NCBI RefSeq assembly: GCF_001485215.1
Contig: NZ_BBWW01000001.1
Span: forward strand, 3,472,001-3,536,000
From: Leptolyngbya sp. NIES-2104
Lineage (GTDB): Bacteria > Cyanobacteriota > Cyanobacteriia > Leptolyngbyales > Leptolyngbyaceae
DNA: 64,000 nt
Direction: 5' to 3'
Shown: positions 58,518 to 61,504 of the stretch, one piece after another
Position numbering within the stretch: position 1 is the first letter of the stretch
Layout of the letters: each line of letters opens with the position of its first letter
Notes under the pieces: model-generated
Told to the model about the DNA's origin: nothing
Databases searched by the model: none
What the model saw: only the letters and a program-made list of their open reading frames with translations
Translations under genes and position numbers: made by a program

Positions 58518-59516
58518 TTAGGCACGTTGACACAGTAAAACGGCGAATGCAGCCGATGAATCTGTCCAAACTTGAATGCAGGGAAGTTGTTTTTCTGTCA
58601 ACAGCTTTTTCATTTGATCGAGATCAAATTTTCGCGAGATTTCACTGAGAATCGTTTCACCCTGGGCAAATTCGACGGTCAAATTTAATGCTTGGAGATG
58701 GATGATTTGCGATCGCAAACTCCGCAGGTGCATTTCAATTTGTCGATTCGTTTCGTTGTAAATTGCAATGTGCTGAAACTGCGTTAAATCGAAATCTCCC
58801 TGAAATCGCTGGTTCAAATGTCGCAACATATTCAAGTTGAATTCAGCCGTAATGCCTTGTCGATCGTTGTACGCTGCTTCGAGTTGTTCGGTCGATTTGT
58901 GTAAATCAATTCCGAGTAGAAAATATTCTTTCGATTTCAATGCGTGGGTAATGCGATCAAGAAAAAGGTCACATTCTTCGGGGTTCAAATTGCCTAACGT
59001 ACTGCCGATAAAGCCGATCATGCGACTCGGAAGATGCGTTTTCGGTAATTTCTCTAGGGCGAGTTCATAAGTTCCCACCAGTCCATAAACTTCAAGCTCC
59101 GGATAATCCTGGAGAAGACTGTGAGCGCTACTTTCGAGAATTCCGGCGCTAATGTCGATCGGGCAATAAACGAGCGGAAATCCCGCCGATCGATACGCAT
59201 CTAATAAAAGTCGCGTTTTTGTCGAATTGCCGCTACCGAGTTCAATCAGTTCACAATCTCCCGTGATTTGGGCGATTTCGGGCGCACAAGATTTGAGAAT
59301 TGCTGTCTCAGTGCGGGTGAGATAGTACTCTGGAAGTTCGGTGATTTGCTCAAAGAGTTGGGAACCTCGATCGTCATAAAAATATCGAGGCGGTAATGTT
59401 TTCGGGGTTTGGCTCAATCCGAGAACGACATCGCTACCGGGATGCAATTCGTCATCAGATGGCGTTGAACGATCGATTAAATAGGTTAAATGAACGCGGT
59501 CAGAAATGCCTTGCAT
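58518..59516 (-). CDS. egtD: L-histidine N-alpha-methyltransferase
   Basis: 332 aa. PPRYFYDDRGSQLFEQITELPEYYLTRTE, LIELGSGNSTKTRLLLDA (SAM site), YCPIDISAGIL, GFIGSTLGNLNPEE and LGIDLHKSTEQLEAAYND define EgtD/DUF2260. It trimethylates histidine to hercynine, the first ergothioneine step. ATG 59516 lies 13 nt after the egtB stop. The third gene of an egtC-egtB-egtD operon. Confidence 0.93.
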   Translation of the reverse strand: MQGISDRVHLTYLIDRSTPSDDELHPGSDVVLGLSQTPKTLPPRYFYDDRGSQLFEQITELPEYYLTRTETAILKSCAPEIAQITGDCELIELGSGNSTKTRLLLDAYRSAGFPLVYCPIDISAGILESSAHSLLQDYPELEVYGLVGTYELALEKLPKTHLPSRMIGFIGSTLGNLNPEECDLFLDRITHALKSKEYFLLGIDLHKSTEQLEAAYNDRQGITAEFNLNMLRHLNQRFQGDFDLTQFQHIAIYNETNRQIEMHLRSLRSQIIHLQALNLTVEFAQGETILSEISRKFDLDQMKKLLTEKQLPCIQVWTDSSAAFAVLLCQRA

Positions 59517-59529
59517 CACAGCGAACTCC

Positions 59530-60690
59530 TCATACACCAGAAACACAGCGAAAGCCAGAGAAGATTTCTCGGACGTGCGGATAATACCAGTTTCGGAAGG
59601 AGTTTCGCATTGCCCACGGGAAAGTAACCCAGCTTCCACCTTTTAGAACCCGGTGCGCCTGATCAAAATAAGTTTGAGAATAGCCAGGGTACGGATAGCT
59701 TTCAAAGTTGGGATAGCTCTCAAACCAAGTCGCCGTCCATTGCCAAACTTCACCCAGCATAGTTTGAAATTGAGCGGCTTTTTCCCATTCGGCTTCGGTG
59801 GGAAGTCGCTTTCCGACAAATCGAGCATAGGCATCGGCTTCGTACCAACTTACACCGCAGACTGGAGAATTGTCGCTGCGATTTAGGCGGCTAATGCCCC
59901 CTAAATCCCCCAGAATGGGGGACTTTGAAGAGGATGACCAATAGAGGGGATGGGTGATTTGATCGTCCTGAAGCCATTTCCAGCCTTGCTTAGTCCACCA
60001 TTGCGGATTCTGATAGCCGCCTGCTTCGATGAACGATCGATATTCTGCATTCGTGACCGGATGTCGATCAATCCAATAGTCTTCTAAATAAATTTCATGT
60101 GCAGGACGCTCATTATCTTGAGCCTCGATCGCATCACTCCCCTGCACAAACGAACCTGCCGGAATCAAAACCATTCCCCCTCGACTCTGAGCATCTTTCA
60201 ATTCAAAGTCCCCCACTCGTGGGAGATTTAGGGGGCTTCCACCCGCCCCAATCGCAGTCCGTAATCCCACCAACGCAAGCACGATCGCGATCGTCTCGGC
60301 GTGTTGTGATTCATGCTGGATCAACCATTTCCACAATCGTTCCTGCTCCTCCAGAGGCGCGATCGCTAAGTAATCCAATACTTTCGATCGCACCGCTGCC
60401 AAATAGTCCAAAACGGTTTCAATCGCAGGCAACCCAACGCGATCGCACTTCGGCAAACCATCCTGAGCAAACAATCGATGATACTCAGGAAACACAGGCG
60501 GATACCCGGCACATCGCTGCAAAATCCAGAGCGCTTCAGTATAAGCAAGATGTCCCACATGCCACCCGATCGGACTGAAATCAGGATGTGCTTGAGTGCA
60601 AAAGGTTTCGTAATCGAGCGATTGAATGAGAGTTAGCGTGTTCGATCGACACTGCTGCATCGAATCGCGCAACTCAGATCGGAGTGACAT
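59530..60690 (-). CDS. egtB: Ergothioneine sulfoxide synthase EgtB
   Basis: About 386 aa. An N-terminal DinB domain has the iron-ligand histidines in GWHVGHLAYTE and LIQHESQHAE. The C-terminal FGE-sulfatase domain has MVLIPAGSFVQGS, YWIDRHPVTNAEYRSF, VCGVSWYEADAYARFVGKRLPTEAEWEKAA and VLKGGSWVTFPWAMRNSFRNWY. It joins hercynine with a thiol donor. Two 34-35 bp palindromic repeats lie inside the coding region without breaking the frame (residues about 152-166 and 254-268). ATG 60690 is chosen; 60705 is possible. Confidence 0.92.
   Translation of the reverse strand: MSLRSELRDSMQQCRSNTLTLIQSLDYETFCTQAHPDFSPIGWHVGHLAYTEALWILQRCAGYPPVFPEYHRLFAQDGLPKCDRVGLPAIETVLDYLAAVRSKVLDYLAIAPLEEQERLWKWLIQHESQHAETIAIVLALVGLRTAIGAGGSPLNLPRVGDFELKDAQSRGGMVLIPAGSFVQGSDAIEAQDNERPAHEIYLEDYWIDRHPVTNAEYRSFIEAGGYQNPQWWTKQGWKWLQDDQITHPLYWSSSSKSPILGDLGGISRLNRSDNSPVCGVSWYEADAYARFVGKRLPTEAEWEKAAQFQTMLGEVWQWTATWFESYPNFESYPYPGYSQTYFDQAHRVLKGGSWVTFPWAMRNSFRNWYYPHVREIFSGFRCVSGV
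59896..59929. repeat. Palindromic interspersed repeat, copy 1 (inside egtB)
   Basis: Reads GCCCCCTAAATCCCCC, AGAAT, GGGGGACTTTGAA on plus. The core CCCCC...GGGGG is an inverted repeat. In the egtB frame it encodes roughly SKSPILGDLGGIS, a loop that the family normally lacks. Confidence 0.8.
60202..60236. repeat. Palindromic interspersed repeat, copy 2 (inside egtB, inverted)
   Basis: On the minus strand it reads GCCCCCTAAATCTCCC, ACGAG, TGGGGGACTTTGAA, almost the same 34-35 bp as copy 1 but in the opposite orientation. In the egtB frame it encodes GSPLNLPRVGDFE between the DinB and FGE domains. Confidence 0.8.
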
Positions 60691-61456
60691 CTGGCTCAAA
60701 ATCATGATCAACGGTCAACAAACAGCGATCGGGCAATGCTTTCCACTTTCCCTCAAACATCGGCTCTGATGCAATCAGTACTGAGTCTGAAAACTTTGGA
60801 TCATTCTGCAAATAATAGAGCGTCGGAGTCGGAATGCCTTGAGCATAGCGAGAAGCGACAAGCTGGTTGCCATCACTCAAAATCAGGTTGGCAGAAAACG
60901 GAACCTGATGTTTTTCACCTAATTCCGTCAGCACTTTCAGGGTCTGATGTAACGCATCGGTGAGACTAGCACTTGATTCCAATTCATCGATCACAGTGGC
61001 GAAGATATGTTCTGAATCGGTTAATCCTTGCACCATTTGATAAGCAAGGTCACTTAAGCGATCGCGCATCGGACGATACAAGGTGTGGCGAAAGTCTTTG
61101 ATAAATCCGTTGTGCAATCCCAGAATCGACGCATATTGAAACGGTTGAGTATTACTTAAATCCGTCGCGAGTCCCGCTGTTGCACTGCGAACATTTGCCA
61201 GCACACAACCCGATTCGACATATCGCCCTAAACTTTGTAAATTCACCTCGTTCCAAATTGGTAAAGTACTGCGGTAGGTAAACGGTTCGGTTTCACGAGT
61301 GGGATGATACCAACCGATGCCGAAACCGTCAGCGTTCATCGTCCCTGCTGTCATTTCTTTGGGCTGATAGCTTTGGACGAGAAGAGAATGATCGGATTGA
61401 GAAACTAAACGATCGAGCAACACAGGCTGCCCTAAATAACCAAGCAAACGACACAT
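60674..61456 (-). CDS. egtC: Gamma-glutamyl-hercynylcysteine sulfoxide hydrolase (class II amidotransferase)
   Basis: 260 aa. MCRLLGYLG exposes Cys2 as the N-terminal nucleophile after Met removal; ADGFGIGWYHP, CVLANVRSATAG and LGLHNGFIKDF are class II glutamine amidotransferase motifs. In mycobacteria EgtC removes gamma-glutamate. ATG 61456 is required so that Cys is residue 2; the longer frame to 61495 would bury it. Overlaps egtB by 17 nt. Confidence 0.9.
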   Translation of the reverse strand: MCRLLGYLGQPVLLDRLVSQSDHSLLVQSYQPKEMTAGTMNADGFGIGWYHPTRETEPFTYRSTLPIWNEVNLQSLGRYVESGCVLANVRSATAGLATDLSNTQPFQYASILGLHNGFIKDFRHTLYRPMRDRLSDLAYQMVQGLTDSEHIFATVIDELESSASLTDALHQTLKVLTELGEKHQVPFSANLILSDGNQLVASRYAQGIPTPTLYYLQNDPKFSDSVLIASEPMFEGKWKALPDRCLLTVDHDFEPDVTPI

Positions 61457-61504
61457 AAAGATGGGGAGGAATCGAACTTCCTCAATCTGACACAAATTCT
61501 CAGC

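Follow-up and report, generated by a model that had tools for sequence, protein, structure and literature searches.

Halves of a dispersed, bipartite palindromic repeat lie in frame in an egtB-like gene of Leptolyngbya sp. NIES-2104

The egtB-like gene of Leptolyngbya sp. NIES-2104 raises the question of how an enzyme gene comes to carry two palindromes within its reading frame. The gene lies in a window of 64,000 nucleotides, by which we mean the whole stretch of DNA analysed, and the present genome (G000, 6.39 Mb) was compared with seven relatives of the genus (G001-G007), giving eight genus genomes in all. The gene occupies 59530..60711 on the minus strand and encodes 393 aa from the first start codon. 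A domain search places DinB_2 at residues 19-141 and the FGE match at residues 179-314. It has as neighbours an egtD gene (58518..59639, minus strand, TIGR03438) and an egtC-like gene (60674..61495, minus strand, TIGR03442), both of which score above their model cut-offs. The egtB product itself reaches 349.4 bits, which is below the curated TIGR03440 cut-off of 360; the EgtB of G005, which is free of the units described below, is likewise under it, at 304.3 bits. In structural comparison, the best match of the AlphaFold model is EgtB 6o6l (Z 38.1, rmsd 3.4, 364 aligned); the top six matches are all EgtBs (Z 36.8-38.1), and SenA chains come next (Z 35.5-35.8). Among named relatives, EgtB identity is 74% to Phormidium tanganyikae FI6-MK23, 71% to Cyanobacteria bacterium FACHB-63 and 66% to Leptolyngbya sp. 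Prado105. As a side observation, the TIGR03440 cut-off is missed by genus EgtB in all four cases tested, and a stretch before MLGEVWQWT that is present in many other EgtBs is missing from it; genus EgtB may be a distinct subtype.

The first-pass annotation had described two palindromes of 34-35 bp, in opposite orientation and in frame, and its coordinates and translations (GSPLNLPRVGDFE and SKSPILGDLGGIS) are correct. It took them for two copies of one palindrome; they are instead the left (L, 35 bp) and right (R, 34 bp) halves of a bipartite element. The L-type half-unit (GCCCCCTAAATCTCCCACGAGTGGGGGACTTTGAA) is at 60202..60236 on the minus strand and encodes SPLNLPRVGDFE in the linker between DinB and FGE. 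Next to it, at 60237..60260 on the minus strand, is its probable outer arm, which by eye resembles the arms of some intergenic copies. The R-type half-unit (GCCCCCTAAATCCCCCAGAATGGGGGACTTTGAA) is at 59896..59929 on the plus strand, and the minus strand here encodes SKSPILGDLGG. Both loops had been placed in linkers, which is right for the first, GSPLNLPRVGDFE, situated between the DinB_2 and FGE domains; the second, SKSPILGDLGGIS, is a loop within the FGE match, immediately before VCGVSWYEADAY. The insertions are indeed in frame, but the gain at site 2 is larger than the palindrome, since 63 nt replace 6 nt of the relatives, a net +57 bp. The whole gain consists of the R unit plus an outer arm and spans 59875..59937 (minus strand), with ends that are uncertain by a few bases. 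An Rfam search of positions 59500-60750 of the window gave no match at E up to 1.

Pattern searches indicate that these units belong to a repeat family. The L pattern matches once in the window, where 0 matches are expected from 100 shuffles; the R unit is outside the reach of this pattern. Over the whole genome, the L pattern with up to 3 mismatches gives 30 matches, compared to 0 for a reversed-pattern control, and a gapped pattern gives 34 matches including both egtB units, again with a control of 0. A half-unit model was then applied to the genome, scoring the best 150 of 1484 candidates; it finds at least 71 half-units grouped into at least 41 sites, which bears out the expectation that the repeat extends beyond egtB. 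The same search of G004 (best 150 of 1555 candidates) finds at least 101 half-units at at least 55 sites. The supposed commonness of such elements in cyanobacteria is borne out by matches of the model at E 1e-4 in 97 of the 194 class genomes sampled, a count made with stricter filters and with the best 28 or so candidates scored per genome.

It could be argued that the two loops are simply native, length-variable loops of EgtB that resemble a repeat by chance or through codon bias. EgtBs do differ in the length of both regions, and the solved EgtB 4x8b also has a long site-2 loop. We nevertheless find this explanation barely credible. It is refuted by the nucleotide match to dispersed, intergenic copies, with reversed controls of 0, and the distance from PLY to P-CGV, which is 25 codons in the present genome, is only 6 in G002, G005, G006 and G007. 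Furthermore, the half-unit model finds no unit within egtB at 23 loci from outside the genus. Its matches there, at E 0.015 or better and including two in locus L044, are off the egtB frame. The sample comprised 30 egtB loci out of 56 genomes with an EgtB match; rows L049 and L052 were left out of the EgtB alignment, and the unit search covered both of these loci whole. Neither of the refuting outcomes named in the first-pass annotation was seen: units are absent from egtB at 23/23 loci outside the genus and in G005, and the repeat is not confined to this gene.

The family is composite. L-type units are 35 bp long with the loop CGAG (AAAT and others also occur), and R-type units are 34 bp long with the loop GAA or TTC, in a tally that leaves out 25 of 71 units in the present genome and 27 of 101 in G004. 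In the commonest form the L and R hairpins, with a spacer of about 38 nt between them, make up a core of 104 bp, which is found in at least 13 pairs in each of the two genomes; other spans range from 36 to 340 bp. Among the sites found, all two-unit sites are head to head (28/28 in the present genome and 46/46 in G004), as are all the pairs left after removal of self-palindromes matched on both strands (4 and 7 respectively, leaving 24/24 and 39/39). In 15 of 23 pairs tested in the present genome and 18 of 38 in G004, the outer arms align as inverted repeats more closely than 99% or more of shuffled sequences do; in the remaining 8 and 20 they were not recognisable as inverted. Two side observations concern the copies themselves. 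Exact-stem L-type copies number 156 in G003, compared to 13 in G001 and 31 in G006, and AAATTT is the most frequent loop among the G003 copies listed; the surplus in G003 hints at what may have been a recent burst. In the pair at G000:C1:1350421-1350571 (L062/L063), both hairpin loops read in the opposite sense to those of the commonest forms, a hint that loops may be inverted by way of the hairpin.

Taken together, the two egtB units form a head-to-head L..R pair of 340 bp (59896..60236, minus strand), whose members are predicted to pair in the mRNA. This is the usual orientation of the family, and the span is the longest among the sites found in the present genome and G004. The canonical orientation and the variation of family spans from 36 to 340 bp would suit the idea that a single long composite element took up gene DNA and has L and R as its ends, or that the two units delimit an exchanged cassette. 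This is unlikely, given that the intervening 270 bp encode FGE sequence that aligns with other EgtBs, that G006 and G007 have L without R, and that single halves are common (12/41 sites in the present genome and 9/55 in G004, among the sites found).

The egtB units were also compared across the genus. At site 1 the L unit is complete in the present genome, G004 and G006. In G007 a different sequence is nested within it, and in G001 it is partly deleted; G002 has an L+R pair and G005 has none. At site 2 an R unit is found in the present genome, G004 and G001 (3/7 species). On the coding strand, the loop of this unit is ATTCT in the present genome and G001, and AGAAT in G004, so that IL is swapped for RM. 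Each genus egtB frame stays open, with a DinB-FGE linker of 20 to 52 codons, and the G005 gene, without units, is an uninterrupted frame of 365 codons. In a tree of egtB and menC, the present genome, G001, G003, G004, G006 and G007 stand apart from G002 and G005 with support 100, G003 being without egtB in the tree data. G001 is placed with a support of 67 in the menC and joint trees, and elsewhere, with a support of 42, in the egtB tree. Because of this low support, the history of the R unit is ambiguous. An L unit would have occupied the DinB-FGE linker from the ancestor of most genus members onwards, and the R unit is found in the FGE-domain loop in three of seven species; we infer the order of these two gains.

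The nested insertion in G007 (L035, 1996-2018 and surroundings) is a different sequence of about 48 bp that contains CAAGTCGGGGAACCCGCCCAACG, and the frame is open across it. Among the loci examined, its core occurs only in the G007 egtB (L035 and L267). It presumably resembles known cyanobacterial repeats.

Other genes carry units too. A unit is found at one site in menC in 6 of the 8 genus genomes; G002 and G005 are without it, and the G004 copy is 12 bp shorter. A GT4 glycosyltransferase gene in the present genome exceeds its counterparts in G003 and G004 by 177 bp (59 codons), with the frame kept, which gives a clean empty site. The insert is also missing in G002, G005 and G006; the search matched nothing in G001 and just a fragment in G007. 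Rows L189, L190, L192 and L194 were left out of the GT4 protein comparison, and the empty sites were read from the nucleotides. The GT4 and menC copies represent insertion polymorphism among relatives. An element in the linker of a CheA-type kinase is present in the present genome and absent in G001, G002, G004, G006 and G007; the row from G003 (L262) stops short of the linker. The orthologous Hpt linker of the CheA-type gene in G004 (L265) has a different repeat-like stretch, PLPEGEGGKNSSSLSPRERVRV, a hint that linkers of this kind may gather various repeats. More generally, when flanks of up to 1.3 kb were compared between the present genome and G004, 6 of the 41 sites, including egtB, could be paired with a G004 site by matches in both flanks, as could a seventh at lower identity.

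Most copies are outside genes, as the first-pass annotation had supposed for a dispersed repeat. Among the sites found, 4/41 in the present genome are in long open frames, namely egtB, menC, the GT4 glycosyltransferase and the CheA-type kinase. In G004 the figure is 4/55, namely egtB, cbiD, another GT4, and a frame without a Pfam match (L221), which was counted as a gene on its open frame alone. In both GT4 proteins the insert separates the matched N-terminal domain from the matched C-terminal one. A greedy ORF count puts the coding share of the window at about 85%, and yet so few sites are genic; frame-keeping genic copies are thus rare. Binomial values for the genic sites are 9e-27 (present genome) and 6e-38 (G004), with the coding density of the window applied to both genomes. 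A site was scored as being in a gene if an open frame ran across it, so that gene-breaking insertions are counted as outside; with the frame built into the definition in this way, the binomial values gauge only the rarity of frame-keeping copies. A borderline site in the present genome (L017, with frames of 44 and 83 codons) and several one-sided short frames were also counted as outside.

Between the present genome and G004, egtB has dN 0.082 and dS 0.69 with the insert columns left out, a dN/dS of about 0.12 with respect to the nearest relative compared; between the present genome and G006 the values are dN 0.138 and dS 0.89 (342 codons). The gene is under purifying selection outside the gapped columns. 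The AlphaFold model of EgtB, made with 28 sequences, has a mean pLDDT of 83.1, and only residues 146-164 and 255-270, within which the two loops lie, form segments of at least 3 residues with pLDDT below 50. The low values may be due in part to the small number of homologues over the inserts rather than to disorder. Judging from the model, the two loops are probably floppy and the enzyme otherwise looks intact; the loops would be truly flexible and effectively neutral.

The inserts had been suggested to feed protein evolution. As a statement of benefit this goes too far: low-confidence loops, purifying selection and partial in-frame loss show tolerance and not gained function. The corresponding hypothesis, that the inserts altered EgtB and that positive selection has retained them, could draw on the finding that 5 of 7 full-length genus egtB genes have an L unit, in one form or another, at the same position. 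It is very unlikely in view of the low model confidence of the loops, the partial deletion and nested insert seen in relatives, and the unit-free egtB of G005, which keeps its open frame.

A further possibility is that the units are kept for a function of the nucleic acid, such as an mRNA stem, regulation or protein binding, and that the peptide is a by-product. The comparison of silent sites covers the genes with a complete unit (5/8 menC and 3/7 egtB). The menC L unit has 1/12 variable third positions compared to 185/312 elsewhere (Fisher 0.0005, five species), and the egtB L unit has 2/12 compared to 174/345 (Fisher 0.02). Both of these counts would be expected from a functional nucleic acid, as would the predicted fold of the egtB mRNA, in which L pairs with R over about 270 nt (z -6.42). 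This pairing is not a surprise, because L and R are inverted repeats, and it is not a sign of function. The egtB R unit has 3/11 variable third positions compared to 185/358, which is not significant (Fisher 0.10), and equal-sized segments at least as conserved as the units occur in each gene (7/290 for menC L, 22/323 for egtB L and 57/338 for egtB R). Units are partly deleted in the G001 egtB and the G004 menC, G006 and G007 manage without R, and exchange with other copies would give the same silent-site pattern. A nucleic-acid function is therefore rather improbable.

The low silent-site variation could arise if the units trade sequence with other copies or if the DNA itself is constrained, or it could be a chance effect in so few codons, about a dozen. 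The menC loops give mixed evidence on exchange: the G001 loop (AAGCTT) is similar to AAATTT, a loop common in that genome, while the G003 loop (ACTTGT) is unlike the majority loop of G003. It is a speculative idea, and we would lean against it at present, that genic copies exchange sequence with the extragenic family or are constrained like it, so that these stretches of enzyme follow the rules of the repeat and not those of the host gene. If true, conserved silent sites and inverted hairpin loops in enzymes would reflect evolution of the repeat type.

As regards mobility, Y1/RAYT-type transposases (PF01797) were found in 7 of the 8 genus genomes. The search of the G006 genome gave no PF01797 match, and yet all of the best 150 candidates scored there are half-units (at least 150), while the match in the present genome is only a fragment with a stop. 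Mobilisation of the units by RAYT/Y1 enzymes is not supported by either of these two genomes, although such enzymes may still be involved. The GT4 copy, of 174 bp, starts with TACC and ends with GGTA, and so has TA at both ends, although its empty sites are strongly diverged. TA at both ends would fit TA-targeting transposons and may mark a target-site duplication. We infer that the element is transposed by an enzyme acting in trans.

We consider it likely that the egtB palindromes are tolerated in-frame relics of a bipartite, non-autonomous element, similar to a MITE or a REP dimer, in flexible linkers. In its commonest form the element has left and right hairpins separated by about 38 nt, with inverted outer arms around many copies, and its copies survive mainly outside genes. 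The few genic copies would survive because each unit can be read in several stop-free frames, because the length gained is divisible by three, and because they lie where the protein has a flexible linker or a loop at its surface. Both egtB loops would then be tolerated and subject to continuing in-frame remodelling by loop inversion, partial deletion and nested insertion.

The best-documented cases of palindromic elements inserted in frame come from Rickettsia and, in the form of REPs, from several further groups; in the present cyanobacterial genus a bipartite element lies within genes in the same way. Ordinary enzymes (EgtB, MenC, CbiD and GT4) together show unoccupied sites, old insertions shared between species, a fresh insertion and stages of decay, which makes them a tractable system for studying how a protein copes with the sudden gain of roughly 10 to 60 residues. 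With matches in half of the class genomes sampled, annotators may expect such loops elsewhere. Among the papers listed in literature searches on in-frame palindromes, MITEs and REPs in cyanobacterial genes, no title or abstract opening describes the present family in coding sequence, and a literature search with the sequence of the unit gave no title on a bacterial repeat among the matches listed.

Several known systems can be compared with the element. The small dispersed repeats of Nostoc, which Elhai and colleagues are said to have described in 2008, reportedly form hairpins and occur as nested insertions; on this description the present units are like them in being cyanobacterial, small, hairpin-forming and nested, and would differ in length from their reported families of 21-27 nt. 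The element is also like cyanobacterial MITEs such as Nezha in its inverted arms in many copies and in the TA at the ends of the GT4 copy, and as with MITEs we assume that it has no coding capacity of its own. It would differ from them in its internal double hairpin.

The resemblance to REP dimers and REPINs lies in the short hairpins, the mostly intergenic position and the inverted pairs. Intragenic REPs, and cyanobacterial REP dimers within longer palindromes, are already published. One account reports REPs within ORFs of several species, among them REPs at nearly the same position of recB in two species of Xanthomonas, and also cyanobacterial REP families, with many GTAG-15 dimers of Anabaena variabilis inside longer palindromes (PMC3733652). 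As described in that text, the latter come close to the architecture seen here, of L and R with outer arms (PMC3733652). Unlike the GTAG families, however, the present units rarely have GTAG at the foot of the hairpin (6/61 units in the present genome and 2/92 in G004). There may still be kinship with GTAG-12, -15 or -16.

A parallel in behaviour is offered by the Rickettsia palindromic elements (RPEs), which lie in frame in protein genes, and where guanylate kinase is active with the insert (PMC2229807, PMC10969869). The present element is like RPEs and the reported protein-coding palindromes of Wolbachia in being palindromic, dispersed, and in frame in conserved protein genes, here egtB, menC, GT4 and the CheA-type gene in the present genome, and egtB, cbiD and the other GT4 in G004. 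It differs from RPEs in occurring in another phylum and in being bipartite with two hairpins. The genic share is also much smaller, 4/41 and 4/55 compared to nearly half of the RPEs of R. conorii, as reported (PMC10969869). By analogy, our best reading is that the element would be a cyanobacterial counterpart of the Rickettsia palindromic elements.
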